Source: an uncultured Planktomarina sp. (lineage in GTDB: Bacteria > Pseudomonadota > Alphaproteobacteria > Rhodobacterales > Rhodobacteraceae). From it: a DNA stretch of 64,000 nucleotides. The notes under the pieces were generated by a model, which was not told the origin of the DNA, made no database searches, and saw only the letters and a list, made by a program, of their open reading frames with translations. Shown piece by piece: positions 49,563 through 57,043 of the stretch. The stretch spans positions 124,001-188,000 of the forward strand of contig CAJJBZ010000003.1 of NCBI GenBank assembly GCA_905182535.1. Reading direction: 5' to 3'. Each line of letters starts with the position of its first letter. Within the stretch, counting starts at the first letter, position 1. A program made the translations under genes and the position numbers.

Positions 49563-49678
49563 ACCAGCTGTTTCCAGATTAAGCTTGCGATGGCGCGCAA
49601 CGCTGGCCCAATGTCAGGTATTGGGTTCACCTTGCGTAGTGATCAGCCTATATTAAAAAAATGTTATTGGAGCAGAAC

Positions 49679-50710
49679 ATGCAAATCGCAAATCGCAAAA
49701 TTGGACCAAACGAAAAACCTTTGGTGATCGCCGAGATTGGCATTAACCATGGTGGCGACGTTGAGGTTGCAAAGTATATGGTGCAATTGGCAGCAAAATC
49801 TGGCTGTGAGTGCATTAAGCACCAAACACATTTTGTCGAAGACGAAATGACCGAAGCGGCGAAACAGATCTTTCCGCCAAATGCAGAAATATCGATATGG
49901 GATGTCATGTCCGCTTGCGCGTTGTCCAAAGACGATGAAATCGTTCTGAAAAACTACACTGAAGACCTAGGACTAATTTACCTCTCAACCCCGTTCTCAC
50001 GCTCAGCTTCAGATTTTTTGGAAGAGATTGGCGTGCCGGGGTTCAAAATTGGATCCGGTGAGGCCGACAACCTGCCACTGATCCGCCATATTGCTAAAAA
50101 GGGCAAACCTGTGATCATGTCCACAGGCATGCAAACCATTGAGAGTATCCGCCAAAGCGTTCAAATACTTGAGGAATCCGGCGTCGATTATGCATTGTTA
50201 GAGTGCACCAATCTCTATCCCTCACCACCAGAAATTGTCTCACTGAGAGGCGTTCGAGATCTAAAAGTAGCCTTCCCGAAAGCCATTATTGGCTTTTCCG
50301 ACCATTCCATCGGTCCAGAAATGGCCTTGGCCTCCGTCGCTTTGGGCGCTTGCATTCTTGAGCGGCATTATACCGACAGCCGCTACCGCAAGGGCCCGGA
50401 CATCGCTTGTTCTATGGACCCTGCCGAACTGCGCCATTTGATCGATCGATCAAAAGAAATCCATATAGCCCTGGGTAATGAGAAGATGCGCACCGGACCC
50501 GAAGAGGATGTCTACCACTTTGCTAGAGCTAGTATTGTGGCCGACAAAAACCTACCCAACGGCCATAGGATCGTCGAACAAGATATATGGGCGCGCCGCC
50601 CAGGTAATGGAGAAATCCCCGGGTTCAAATTTGATGAGATCTTGGGCAAGCGCCTGACCCGCGCTGTAAGCCGCAATGATCAGCTCAAATGGAGCGATTT
50701 GACTGACTGA
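49679..50710 (+). CDS. neuB: N-acetylneuraminate/legionaminate synthase family protein (NeuB)
   Basis: Condenses an N-acetylated hexosamine-type sugar with phosphoenolpyruvate to a 9-carbon nonulosonic acid. 343 residues from ATG 49679, with GGAGC upstream. NeuB TIM barrel: VIAEIGINHGGDVEVAKYMVQ, ECIKHQTH, KIGSGEADNLPLIRHIAKKGKPVIMSTGM, CILERHYTDSRYRKGPD; SAF domain at the C terminus (ARRPGNGEIPGFKFDEILGK). Neu5Ac, legionaminic and pseudaminic synthases share these motifs; the product is not resolved. Confidence 0.9.
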   Translation: MQIANRKIGPNEKPLVIAEIGINHGGDVEVAKYMVQLAAKSGCECIKHQTHFVEDEMTEAAKQIFPPNAEISIWDVMSACALSKDDEIVLKNYTEDLGLIYLSTPFSRSASDFLEEIGVPGFKIGSGEADNLPLIRHIAKKGKPVIMSTGMQTIESIRQSVQILEESGVDYALLECTNLYPSPPEIVSLRGVRDLKVAFPKAIIGFSDHSIGPEMALASVALGACILERHYTDSRYRKGPDIACSMDPAELRHLIDRSKEIHIALGNEKMRTGPEEDVYHFARASIVADKNLPNGHRIVEQDIWARRPGNGEIPGFKFDEILGKRLTRAVSRNDQLKWSDLTD

Positions 50711-50768: not shown

Positions 50769-51899
50769 ATGACACACAAATTACGCCTTCTCTTTGTTAC
50801 CGGAACGCGGGCAGATTTCGGAAAGATCGAACCCTTGGCCCGCACGGCAATCCAAAACGGGTTTGATGTGTCATTTTTTGTCACCGGCATGCATATGATG
50901 GAGAGCTACGGGTTGACCAAAATTGAGGTCAACCGCCTGCCTGGCGCCACAGTGCATGAATTTGTCAACCAACGGCCCGGCGACCCGCAAGATGTGATTC
51001 TGGCGAAAACCATTTTAGGGTTTTCTGACTTTATTGTGGAAGACAAGCCTGATCTCGTGCTGGTGCATGGGGATCGTGTTGAGGCACTGGCCTGCGCTTT
51101 GGTTTGCGCCACAAACTACGTCAAATGCGCCCATATTGAAGGTGGTGAAGTCTCCGGAACCATCGACGAAATTCTGCGCCATTGTAATTCGAAGTTGGCA
51201 TACTGCCATTTTGTCAGCTCCAAAACAGCCGGAAGACGGGTGCAAACACTGGGTGAGTCTGCGGATTCGATCCACGTCATCGGCTCACCAGAACTCGACA
51301 TCCACGCGCAACCATCCGGTTTTGTGCTGCAAGATGTGTTAGATCACTATGAAATTTCAAAATCTGACTACGGTATTTGTATCCTGCACCCAGTCACTTC
51401 AGAAGCTAATGACATGGGCCGACAAGCCACAGATTTATTTCGCGCATTGCAGCGAAGTGGCAAATACTTTGTCGTCATCAAGCCCAATAATGACCCAGGT
51501 TCCGAAGGCATTTTGTCAGTGATCAACACGCTTCCCGAGACGCAGTTCAAAGTCATTCCATCCATGCGCTTCGGGCGCTTCTCAGAGTTACTGCGCAACG
51601 CAGCTTGCATTTTAGGTAATTCCTCCTCAGGTGTGCGCGAGGCCCCCTTTCTTGGTATTGCTTCGTTGGATGTGGGGTCCCGGCAAACCGACCGAGCCTT
51701 CAGCGTCTCCATATCTAAGCTGGCAGCAGAAGATACCAACGGCATCCTAGATTTTATAGCCACCAACTGGCACAAATCCTATGAGCGTCAGACAGAATTT
51801 GGTGATGGAAATGCCACGCAAAAGTTTATTAACCTACTAAAGTCCAACACCTTTTGGCAACGCTCAATGCAAAAGAAATTCCATGACATTTCATCGTAA
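50769..51899 (+). CDS. neuC: UDP-N-acetylglucosamine 2-epimerase family hydrolase (NeuC-like)
   Basis: A 376-residue enzyme of the GT-B epimerase fold. N terminus KLRLLFVTGTRADFGKIEPL, DLVLVHGDRVEALACAL, CAHIEGGEVSGTIDEILRHCNSKL, HVIGSPELD, and C-terminal ACILGNSSSGVREAPFLG. NeuC-type members hydrolyse UDP-GlcNAc or UDP-2,4-diacetamido sugars to give the hexosamine used by NeuB. Its position right after neuB supports this. It overlaps the downstream Kdo-transferase-like gene by 17 bases. Confidence 0.9.
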   Translation: MTHKLRLLFVTGTRADFGKIEPLARTAIQNGFDVSFFVTGMHMMESYGLTKIEVNRLPGATVHEFVNQRPGDPQDVILAKTILGFSDFIVEDKPDLVLVHGDRVEALACALVCATNYVKCAHIEGGEVSGTIDEILRHCNSKLAYCHFVSSKTAGRRVQTLGESADSIHVIGSPELDIHAQPSGFVLQDVLDHYEISKSDYGICILHPVTSEANDMGRQATDLFRALQRSGKYFVVIKPNNDPGSEGILSVINTLPETQFKVIPSMRFGRFSELLRNAACILGNSSSGVREAPFLGIASLDVGSRQTDRAFSVSISKLAAEDTNGILDFIATNWHKSYERQTEFGDGNATQKFINLLKSNTFWQRSMQKKFHDISS

Positions 51900-53154
51900 T
51901 CTAGCGGAAACTGCTAGCCTTGCCCTATACAGAGCAATCACCACTCTAATTACACCATTTCTAGGCCAGCATCTAAAAAAACGGCTAAAACGCGGCAAAG
52001 AACACCCTAGCCGGTGGCGCGAAAAACAAGGATTTTCTGTTACAGCGCGGCCAAACGGCAAGCTCATCTGGCTCAATGCCGTGGGCCTAGGGGAAGTTAT
52101 GGCACTGCGCGGCCTTATAGTAGCCTTACATAATCGCGATCCAGAGCTTAATTTTCTAGTAACCTCCTCGACATTAGTATCCGCCGAGACCTTTGCCAAA
52201 AACTTACCGCCAAACACACTACACCAATTTCTACCACTCGACAGCCCAGCTTACACACGGCGTTTTTTAGACCACTGGAAGCCCAACCTTGCACTGTGGT
52301 CGGAACAAGATATTTGGCCCGGGCTAGTGTTCCAAACATCACACAGGAATATCCCACAAGCACTGGTTAATGTGCGTATGACCAAGACATCGTTTCGCAA
52401 TAAAACCTTTGTGCAGGCATTGTTTCGCGCCACATATAAAAATTTCTCCTTGATTTCAGCGCAGGAGCCGCAGACAGCAAATGCACTCAAAACACTTTCG
52501 GTACGCGAAGACATTCAGATTGATGGCTCTCTAAAGCCCCATTGTCCACCATTGTTTGTCGATCCCAAAGGGCAGGCAGAATTTTCTACTGCAGCCATTG
52601 GAAGATCCATTTGGCTTGCAGCCTCCTGTCATCCAGAAGATGAAGACCTGGCCCTTCAAGCCCAACGCTTACTGTTGGCCAAAGGGGCTAATCCTCTGCT
52701 GATCTTGGCCCCACGTCATCCGAGCCGAACTGATGAAATACTTGCAAAGCTTGACGGATTAAGTGTTAAAATACATAGCCGCGGCGAATTACCAGCAGCT
52801 GAAACACAAATCTACCTTGCAGACTCTTTCGCTGAAATGGGCCTTTGGTATGCAAGTTCAGAGCAAGCCCTCATCGGCGGCACTTTCAGCGCAGTTGAGG
52901 GGCATAATCCTTGGGAAGCTTTACAGCTTGGTTGCGGAGTTATGCACGGACCACGGGTGGAAAATTTTGTAACTGACTTTGATATTCTTCGACAAGCGAA
53001 AGCCTGTTTTGCGGTCCACAACGCTGAAGATATAGTCGCACATGTCACATCCCCACCCGCACGTGGACTTGAGAGCTTTGAACGCCTACAACATGCCAAC
53101 CGGTCCAAAATAAGCAATCTTACAGATCAGCTGCTTAAATTAATTCGGGCGTAG
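51883..53154 (+). CDS. Kdo-transferase-like protein 1 (GT30)
   Basis: A 423-residue protein of the WaaA/KdtA family (Glycos_transf_N plus GT-B half). Motifs: WLNAVGLGEVMALRGLIVAL, where the family reads HAVSVGE and the Glu is retained; SEQDIWPGL (family ETELWP); and GGTFSAVEGHNPWEALQLG (family GGH-NPLEP). WaaA attaches Kdo from CMP-Kdo to lipid A. The substitutions and its coupling to neuB-neuC hint at another CMP-activated acidic sugar. The start ATG 51883 is inside neuC. Confidence 0.82.
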   Translation: MTFHRNLAETASLALYRAITTLITPFLGQHLKKRLKRGKEHPSRWREKQGFSVTARPNGKLIWLNAVGLGEVMALRGLIVALHNRDPELNFLVTSSTLVSAETFAKNLPPNTLHQFLPLDSPAYTRRFLDHWKPNLALWSEQDIWPGLVFQTSHRNIPQALVNVRMTKTSFRNKTFVQALFRATYKNFSLISAQEPQTANALKTLSVREDIQIDGSLKPHCPPLFVDPKGQAEFSTAAIGRSIWLAASCHPEDEDLALQAQRLLLAKGANPLLILAPRHPSRTDEILAKLDGLSVKIHSRGELPAAETQIYLADSFAEMGLWYASSEQALIGGTFSAVEGHNPWEALQLGCGVMHGPRVENFVTDFDILRQAKACFAVHNAEDIVAHVTSPPARGLESFERLQHANRSKISNLTDQLLKLIRA

Positions 53155-53172
53155 TCAAGAAACGAGCTTATT

Positions 53173-54506
53173 GTGGCGCAAAACCCAGCCTTCCCATGCT
53201 TAAATGTCCGTATAATGCTGGCTTTGTACTGGTTAATCTGGTTGGTTTGTATGCCTGTTATCCTGGTTTACCTATATCTTCGAAGTCGTCGTGAGCCAGA
53301 ATATTTCAAATTTCTTGGCGAGCGCTTTGGCCATCACCAACTACGCAAAGGCCCCCATATTTGGATTCATGCGGTGTCTTTGGGCGAGTTGCGCTCTGCC
53401 GCGCCATTGATTGTGCATCTGTTAGAAGGCCCCCTGCCGATTGTGATCACCCATTTCACCCCCGCCGGACGGCGCGAGGTAGCACGTTTGTTTTCTTCGG
53501 CCGTTGCGGATGGGCGGTTGACGCCCTGCTATATCCCCTTCGATTATGACGCAGCCTTTAAACGGTTTTTTAATGCCTTCTCCCCCACTTATGGCCTCGT
53601 GATGGAGGTTGAATTTTGGCCTGGCATGATCATGAGCAGCCGGAAATGTGGCGTGCCGCTTGTTCTTGTGCAACGGGCAATATCCCAGAAAAAGTTTTGA
53701 GAGGGACCAATCGCGGTTTTTTTCCAGAGCGAAAGTTGTCTCAGGCTTTGCCGGCGTGATGGTGAAATCTCAGCTGCAAGCGGATCGGTTTCGCGAACTT
53801 GGCGTAAAGAAAATAGCCGTGACCGGTGAAATGCGCTTCGAACAACCCATTCCGCAAGATCACCTCGACGCGGCCCATAACCTGCGCACCGCAGCTTTTG
53901 CAGAACGTTCCATAATCACGCTAGCCAGCGTTGTGGAGGGGGAGGACGACAGGTTTTTAGAATTGATAGCAGCAATACGAACTCATTTTGCAAACCAAAA
54001 AAAATCTGCCCCACTCTTCATCTACGTACCACGCGCACCAGACCGCTTTGAACTGGTAGCAGATATGATCAGCAAACGTGGCTTAAGATATGCAAGACGA
54101 AGCGAATGGCTCAATTCTGCTTTACACCCGGAACCTGAAAGTACGATGAGCACGTTTGACATCCTGCTTGGAGACAGTATTGGGGAAATGTATTTTTATC
54201 TAGAGCTATGTGATCTCGCAATTGTCGGCGGTGGCTTTGGCCCTAAAGGCTCACACAACATCTCTGAACCTCTCTGCCTCAAAAAACCAGTCATCATTGG
54301 ACCTAATGATTACACAATCGAATTTCCTGCGCGCGAGGCCATTGCTGCCGGGGTTTGCCTCAGGATGGATTTTGACAAACTCACAGGCGACTTGAAAAAG
54401 CGCATAAAGGGTGACGTTGAAATACGGGTTCAAAGAGACTGTCGGCGGCGGGACGGAAAAAACCATCGCTGCGCTTGAAGCTTTTTTGCTGACTACCAGC
54501 CGCTAA
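53173..54506 (+). CDS. Kdo-transferase-like protein 2 (GT30, two frameshifts)
   Basis: A second WaaA-type protein of about 430 residues. The N-terminal piece has an inner-membrane helix, then WIHAVSLGELRSAAPL and VMEVEFWPGMIMSS. A surplus base near 53667 breaks the frame; after it come CNGQYPRKSFERD and VVGGGFGPKGSHNISEPLCL. A second shift near 54425 hides the C terminus GFKETVGGGTEKTIAALEAFL, which ends at 54506. The start is the GTG at 53173 or ATG at 53215. This copy is closer to canonical WaaA than copy 1. Its end overlaps the SDR gene end by 14 bases. Confidence 0.82.
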
Positions 54507-55286
54507 AACCGCCATCCACATTGACCATTTGTCCAGTCATATATCCAGCACCTTCTGAGCATAAAAATAGCATCACATCAGCGATTTCTTGAGGTTCAGC
54601 CATGCGTCCCGCCATGATCAACTTGCTCACCCGATTTTGGAACTCATCGGAATGTCCGTTGAATACCGCGCCCGGAGCAATGGTGTTGACCGTACAGCCA
54701 CGCTCAGCCCAATAGCCCGCCAACCAGAGCGTCAGGCCATGGATACCGGCCTTGGTACTCGAATAGGCTGAGAACGACTTAAATGGCATGTCCTTGTAGA
54801 TCTCATGATGCGGGCCGTTCAACGCATACATTGACGCCACATTGACCAAATGCCGCAGGGTAGCGGCCAACAATATCAATATCCATTTGGCGCGCGATCA
54901 AAAATGCTCCAGTGAGATTGACCCTTATGGTCTTCTCCCAATCTTCCAAAGAGGTATTGGCAAAATCCGGAAAGCTTTTGCCCGCTCCCATCAACATCTC
55001 GCCAGTAATTGCGGCATTGTTAAGCACCACATTGGGCAGATGACCATCAGCCGCCACGCGTTTGAAAATCTCTTTGACTTGATCCTCGTCCGCCACATCC
55101 AAATCGTAAAATGCAAAATTCAAATTTTCGCCAAAAGATTCTTGCAACGCATCAGCGCGCGCACCCAGAAGATCAGTTGCCACAACCCGGGCACCCGGAT
55201 GCAAGCATGTTACGCACATAGGTGGTGCCCAGAACACCGCCTGATCCGGTGATGAAAATTGTTCTTTTTTCAAGCAAGCTGGTCAC
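54493..55286 (-). CDS. SDR-family oxidoreductase of the nonulosonate block (two frameshifts)
   Basis: A short-chain dehydrogenase of about 264 residues. From GTG 55286, with AAGGA upstream, it reads [19 protein letters not shown] (NAD loop), then after a surplus base near 55198 GARVVATDLLGARADAL, NVVLNNAAITG, and after a second break near 54860 VNVASMYALNGPHHEIY, SAYSSTKAGIHGL (catalytic Y-x-x-x-K) and GAGYMTGQMVNVDGGF. PtmA-like proteins in nonulosonate clusters look like this. Overlaps the CMP-sugar synthetase stop. Confidence 0.85.
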
Positions 55287-55946
55287 TGGTTTGTTCCTTC
55301 ATTAGAAATTTAACGATCTTAAAATCAAGCTCGCTGTCAATATCCACACAGCGTTCGGATGGCATCAAAAACGGTAACACCCGGCCTTCAAACAGCGAGG
55401 TGGCTGATTTCAAATAGGCTGGATCCAACACATAGGTGGATGCGGCATGCTCGTAGACCACTGGCGCTTGCTGTCGTGCAACATCATGATTGAGCCAAAT
55501 TGACTGAGCACTGCATCACCCAGATCATCACGATCTACTGAAGTTATAACAACATGATCTAAGCCAAGATTTTTAACTGTTTGAGAAACTCTGTATGGCT
55601 CAAATTGATCAAGAGCCTCTGGTTTTCCAGTTTTCACATTACAGAATGCACAAGCTCGTTGTGCATGTATCCCCCAGTGACGCAATGAATGCTGCCAGAC
55701 TGTCCTTTTTGACGCAACATCCGTGCACAGTTCGGGCGGGCGCATCCCGATATCAAGCGTTTGTTTACTGCGCGCATGGCGATAGATATCTTCATCATCA
55801 GTCGAGACAATCACAACATCAATGCGGGGGTTGCCCAGCAATTGATCCAAGGACCAATCGATTAACGGCTTGCCGTTCAAGGTGCGAAAATTCTTTCCCG
55901 GCACGCCTTTGCTGCCTTTGCGCGCGCCAATATGTCCGACAATCAT
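55270..55946 (-). CDS. CMP-nonulosonate synthetase (NeuA/PtmB type), interrupted
   Basis: A cytidylyltransferase of about 225 codons from ATG 55946, whose start overlaps the Gfo/Idh stop as ATGA. N terminus [20 protein letters not shown] is the nucleotide site, followed by [14 protein letters not shown] and TVWQHSL. The C terminus has [18 protein letters not shown] and [16 protein letters not shown]. The centre, where D/Q-x-T-x-PLR is expected, is instead LipA-like (next entry). The frame also breaks near 55450, where one base joins HDSKRQ to APVVYEH. Activates the NeuB product if intact; as read here it cannot. Confidence 0.75.
55515..55677 (-). other. Lipoyl synthase (LipA) radical-SAM segment inside the cytidylyltransferase
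   Basis: On the minus strand this 163-base piece encodes LGDTCT (if one surplus base near 55659 is dropped), then [19 protein letters not shown] and [18 protein letters not shown]. This is the C-x3-C-x2-C region of lipoyl synthase, which has no place in a NeuA-type enzyme. The composition is visibly more AT-rich than its flanks. Downstream the cytidylyltransferase resumes at [15 protein letters not shown]. It replaces rather than adds to the central domain. Confidence 0.85.
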
Positions 55947-56895
55947 TGCAGGTCTACCTTTTTTGTGCCGATAAAATCTCTTTGCTCCCAAGCCTGAGCG
56001 ATCAAACTACAACTGTCGCGCACGAGATCCATTCTGGGCATATCTAAGCATATCTCATCGCCCGAACCCTCCACCAAAGTCGTAAAATCATGCATTATGT
56101 CCATAAACATCGCATTCCGTTCCAGAGTAAACCCATGCTCTGTAACACCCACAGCCGTAGAAACTGTGGCGGAGTTGCTAACGTAGTTGAACGCCACATT
56201 TTGCGTACAGCCGATTAAACTGCCAGAGCGGATTAAAACCGGCGATAGGTAGTCCATCGCCACCGTAGCCGGGCCCCAGTAGGCGAACTCAGCGACAGGT
56301 TTGAGGCAAAATCGACCCCAGGAAAGCGCTCATCCCCAATAGATGTAACGGCAGAAACCTCCAGAGATGGACAAATCATACACGCCAAATCCACCTCATG
56401 ACACAGGTCCAGCAAAACCCCGCCCCCTTTGGCGCGGGCGGCGTAGCTTTTAGAAAATGACCAATTCTCACGCCATTGGCGCACATCATGACCAACTTCA
56501 AAATGTAATCTGAAAAAATCACTGCCGTCGAATTCAGACAAAAATCTAGTGAGCGGGTGGTAGCGCAACATAAAACCCACCATAGATCGCTTCTGCAAAG
56601 ACATCTCTGTACCATAGATCACGTCAACGTCACTTTGCGTAAAAGCCAGTGGTTTTTCAATATACATAGGCACGTTGGAAGCTGCACACATTTTCACCAG
56701 CTTAGACCGCACATCCGTAGCAGTGGCAATGATGACAGCCGCTTGACCATCACAGCGCGCTATACTGCTGGAAAATACCTCAGCATCAAAGCCTCGCCAA
56801 GCAAAATGCTCAACTGTTTTTCCCAGATCTTGCAAATTAGCTGCGTGACGGCGGCCAATAGACCCGCTGCCAACAACAAAATATGTCCAAGCCAT
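55943..56895 (-). CDS. Gfo/Idh/MocA-family oxidoreductase (one-base frameshift)
   Basis: An NAD(P)-dependent sugar dehydrogenase of about 317 residues. From ATG 56895: [20 protein letters not shown] (Rossmann), [17 protein letters not shown] with the EKP motif, and [17 protein letters not shown] with the catalytic His/Asp. Near 56270 the frame breaks; one base joins SPTGA to [13 protein letters not shown]. Genes of this type occur in legionaminate-like loci, but the reaction is not known. ATGA-coupled to the cytidylyltransferase. Confidence 0.85.
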
Positions 56896-57043
56896 GCCGT
56901 TGACCCCAATCCAAAGCAGTCGAAAATAATAAATCACCGGTGGATAACACCGAAACTCACCAAACACTCATATAGCCGATGCGGCTCTTAGGCTATAGAG
57001 TTATCAGCGGCAGAGCACTATGCTAACTCTTTCCTGGTGTGGG

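Follow-up and report, generated by a model that had tools for sequence, protein, structure and literature searches.

A lipoyl synthase patch within a neuA-type gene of an uncultured Planktomarina sp. is very probably a chimera made during sequence assembly

Introduction

On the minus strand of the 64,000-nucleotide stretch of DNA analyzed here (the window), a neuA-type gene for a CMP-nonulosonate synthetase-like protein runs from 55946 down to about 55270, in the same region as a neuB-like (49661–50710) and a neuC-like (50769–51899) gene. Its centre reads as lipoyl synthase (LipA). This raises the question of whether a piece of lipA was really built into a sugar-activating gene or whether the locus was put together wrongly. 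An earlier note, made from the letters of the window, had named a recombination between unrelated genes and an assembly chimera as possible causes. Both fit the bare sequence, and the evidence added in this study favors the chimera.

Beside the neuB-like and neuC-like genes, two tandem Kdo-transferase-like genes (Glycos_transf_N) are located at 51883–54478, which are possibly the transferases for the sugar of this region.

Materials and methods

The window belongs to contig C3 of a draft assembly of 2.39 Mb in 16 contigs (74% complete, 3.2% contamination). For comparison, 40 relatives were searched, and the neuA gene was read in four of them, i.e. G005, G018, G001, and G003 (loci L003, L004, L005, and L006). 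For the detection of further patches, 126 kb of contig C3 were aligned to G005 and 120-base windows with less than 50% identity were selected, a scan which smaller patches escape. Split genes were counted over the stretch shared with G018 and G005, for genes that both of these relatives have as whole frames; frames containing N were omitted. A DNA query of 206 bases was compared with a subset of a larger genome group, namely 385 genomes from the class. The 50-residue patch protein was scanned against GTDB r220, which gave at least 595 stretches, 586 of them encoding a relative, and 80 loci were retained.

Results

Structure of the replaced centre

The first ~90 codons of the gene encode a cytidylyltransferase, followed by lipoyl synthase and then by neuA again in another frame. 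The native 5′ part (55677–55946, minus strand) carries the Pfam domain CTP_transf_3 and is collinear with the neuA genes of G005 and G018. Within the minus-strand ORF 55991–55410, which is NeuA-like at its start and then continues with 48 lipoyl synthase-like residues, this domain covers residues 21–92, compared to residues 21–144 in the gene of G005. Since blastn HSPs to G005 end at 55677 and resume at 55498, the replaced centre comprises 55499–55676. The site given in the earlier note was right, while its borders (55515–55677) have to be moved to these positions according to the alignment to the nearest relative. Also, its view that the gene was altered by replacement and not by lengthening was borne out, as 178 bases of the window stand where G005 has 205.

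Read along the minus strand, the patch starts with an 18-base exact match to lipA of the genome G198 (55659–55676), followed by one extra window base at 55658 and by an exact match of 136 bases (55522–55657; L129:1519–1654). The 3′ junction (55499–55521) is ragged in the alignments, with a few further lipA-like bases and then neuA-like sequence with small indels. Small indels are present at both patch borders. Three-frame translation showed that the 5′ part of neuA continues in frame into most of the patch, whereas the native 3′ part (55270–55498) is in a different frame. The resulting neuA is thus frame-broken and does not encode a full-length cytidylyltransferase domain of the NeuA/PseF type.

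Origin of the patch

The LipA character of the segment, already recognized in the earlier note, was clear at the protein and DNA level. Among the matches listed, the 80 retained GTDB r220 loci showed 63–77% protein identity to the patch, and the loci inspected individually, L041 and the donor locus L129, are lipoyl synthase genes. The patch is indeed more AT-rich, with a G+C content of 36.8% in the 136-base core vs. 48.4% in the window. No match was found in plasmid records, i.e. no plasmid-borne form, and none in viral contigs scanned with one exact 27-base junction pattern.

The 206-base query matched 43 of the 385 genomes, the window's own genome included. The best non-self match was G198, a small-genome alphaproteobacterium from another family than the host, with 98% identity over 171 bases, while the next best match reached 82%. 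The run of 136 consecutive identical bases is far above chance. In the genus of G198, six of ten genomes matched the patch (81–98%, G198 counted); among the other nine, five matched with at best 88%. This near-identity to G198 and the lower identity in the rest of its genus indicate that the patch DNA stems from G198's species or a very close one. In G198, the homologous sequence sits within a whole lipA gene (317 residues), whose locus also has a gene that we take from its sequence to be enolase-like. Neither protein is close to the 80 GTDB r220 loci (62–66% for LipA and 49–60% for the enolase-like protein in the best 10 listed). Outside lipA, no exact match of at least 22 bases was found between the window and the 30 kb of the donor contig that were compared. 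The donor tract in the window comprises ~155–163 bases, which is near the length of one short read.

A 21-mer common to neuA and lipA

The donor lipA and neuA of G005 have an exact stretch of 21 bases in common (window 55599–55619, minus strand; G005:C56:3700–3720), which encodes EALDQFE in the same frame in both and is the probable anchor of the patch. It is the sole 21-base match between 129.6 kb of G005 and 30 kb of the donor contig, and G018 (331.6 kb) has no exact match longer than 17 bases to these 30 kb. The 21-mer lies within the patch nearly in register, with 57 and 100 bases to the borders vs. 79 and 105 bases in G005. Two observations count against a chimera at this point: none of the neuA loci of G018, G003, and G001 matches the donor tract exactly over 12 or more bases, and the 21-mer was observed in neuA of the relative G005 and not in the overwritten sequence of the host, whose species presumably also held this 21-mer or a similar one. 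As lipA sequence is present on both sides of the 21-mer, a single path crossing in an assembly graph would not produce the patch, while replacement of one read length around an anchor would yield this arrangement.

Comparison with relatives

In all four relatives read, neuA is open and uninterrupted with an ordinary centre. The nearest of them, G005, belongs to the same genus and is collinear with the window, with ~92–93% identity to either side of the patch. Over window positions 1–59294, this collinearity has seven breaks, of which five are N gaps in G005 and one is an 85-base extra in the window; only the patch is a swap of sequence for sequence of like length. The 126 kb of contig C3 gave 15 breaks, i.e. 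11 N gaps in G005, two sites with 70–110 bases more and one with ~0.8–0.9 kb less in C3, and the patch. That just one size-preserving non-gap replacement was found in these 126 kb, with no sign of a recurrent artefact, counts against a chimera. The equivalent scan of C3 against G018, which is mostly 74–88% identical, gave many breaks.

The identity to G005 is just 76% in the 5′ part of neuA (55751–56000) and 93–96% at 56001–57000, and the neuA-type gene may itself be a product of exchange among relatives. In G005 and G018, the SDR and MocA frames flanking neuA are whole.

State of the draft assembly

In contig C3, 16 of 83 genes are split. The controls gave 0 of 63 for G005 (six without hit) and 4 of 68 for G018, plus two short genes and one without hit. 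An earlier test with the window alone and a stricter cut had found 15 of 45 genes not whole, some of them cut by the window edge, and one more without hit. Small indels are concentrated around the patch, with 14 at 53.6–56.3 kb vs. one in the remaining 4.5 kb of 52.0–59.25 kb. On a larger scale, the counts of frame-disrupting indels per 10-kb bin speak against a chimera, as 19 were found in the patch bin, 20 in another bin, and 2–17 in the rest. Also against it, only 21 of 104 one-base indels are located beside a homopolymer run of at least four bases, so the indels depart from the classic error pattern of long reads, on which the draft was presumably based.

Six indels of 1–13 bases relative to G005 were found at 54387–54436, in the 3′ end of the second Kdo-transferase-like gene, making this a second badly resolved spot near the patch. 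The genes around neuA (Kdo-transferase-like, SDR, and Gfo/Idh/MocA) have single-base indels relative to G005 at 53658, 54851, 55205, and 56273.

Discussion

Taken from sequence comparison, the lipA patch in neuA is very probably an error of assembly, correction or gap filling and not a real feature. This reading is based on the foreign donor with its near-identical DNA, the internal 21-base anchor, the read-length tract, the ragged and frame-breaking junctions, the error-rich draft, and the intact neuA in four relatives. The draft is probably a metagenome assembly, and the host and the donor organism would have been present in one sample. Reads from the co-occurring donor, an alphaproteobacterium belonging to the G198 species or a very close one, were probably anchored on the ~21 bases common to neuA and lipA, and thereby overwrote the centre of neuA across about one short-read length. 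The fault would lie in polishing, gap filling or hybrid correction, and neuA of the living organism is most likely ordinary.

A hybrid metagenome study warns of errors that arise when the alignment of short reads is ambiguous in regions conserved between strains (PMC11552494). Like mis-polishing and chimeric assembly in hybrid or long-read metagenomes, the present case combines a short foreign stretch on a short exact match with a frameshift-rich draft and ragged junctions. Unlike them, it involves a donor from another family and a 21-mer that connects two unrelated genes instead of lying in a conserved gene.

Far less probable, though the strongest of the alternatives, is a genuine short-patch illegitimate recombination, in which a Rhodobacteraceae-like cell took up a single-stranded fragment of foreign lipA that annealed at the 21-base match, whereby ~160 bases replaced and inactivated the centre of neuA. 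The internal anchor, the heterologous flanks on both sides, and the nearly size-preserving swap are the traces expected from such an event. However, the donor is from another family, neuA was left frame-broken, the draft is rich in errors, and with 136 identical bases the event would have to be very recent. A tract of this size is unusually long for short-patch illegitimate recombination, and to our knowledge such events are extremely rare in nature and mostly involve shorter tracts. Double illegitimate recombination was reportedly described by Hulter and Wackernagel in 2008 in naturally transformed Acinetobacter baylyi. As in that system, short heterologous DNA would have replaced resident DNA at a small match. 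In contrast to it, the donor is unrelated and the gene is destroyed, and the present case is known from assembled sequence alone.

Very unlikely is a real, selected fusion by which the CMP-sugar synthetase gained an iron-sulfur segment of LipA. In its favor, the reading frame of the 5′ part of neuA extends through most of the patch. This frame is lost in the 3′ part, however, and the break disfavors a functional product. Moreover, the radical SAM domain (Radical_SAM) comprises residues 79–242 of the donor LipA, while the ~50 residues of the patch cover just its start, do not form the full barrel, and gave no Pfam domain at E 0.01. The normal neuA centre in the four relatives read also speaks against a fusion. 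Internal gene conversion or duplication from lipA of the host, the least probable alternative, is refuted, since the comparison called for in the earlier note revealed that the genome does have its own lipA elsewhere (G000:C1, ~363 kb; whole 321-residue frame, protein identity of 80–82% to the ten named proteins that match best, the first of them labelled Rhodobacteraceae, a group to which the host thus probably belongs), which was rejected as source because it agrees with the 136-base core in 95 of 136 bases vs. 136 of 136 for the foreign lipA.

If the patch is a chimera of assembly, as we consider very probable, it is a warning that read-length, size-preserving chimeras within single genes can mimic exotic gene fusions. 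As a simple test for them, one can look for a size-preserving synteny break relative to a near relative that coincides with an internal k-mer anchor and a near-identical match to foreign DNA.
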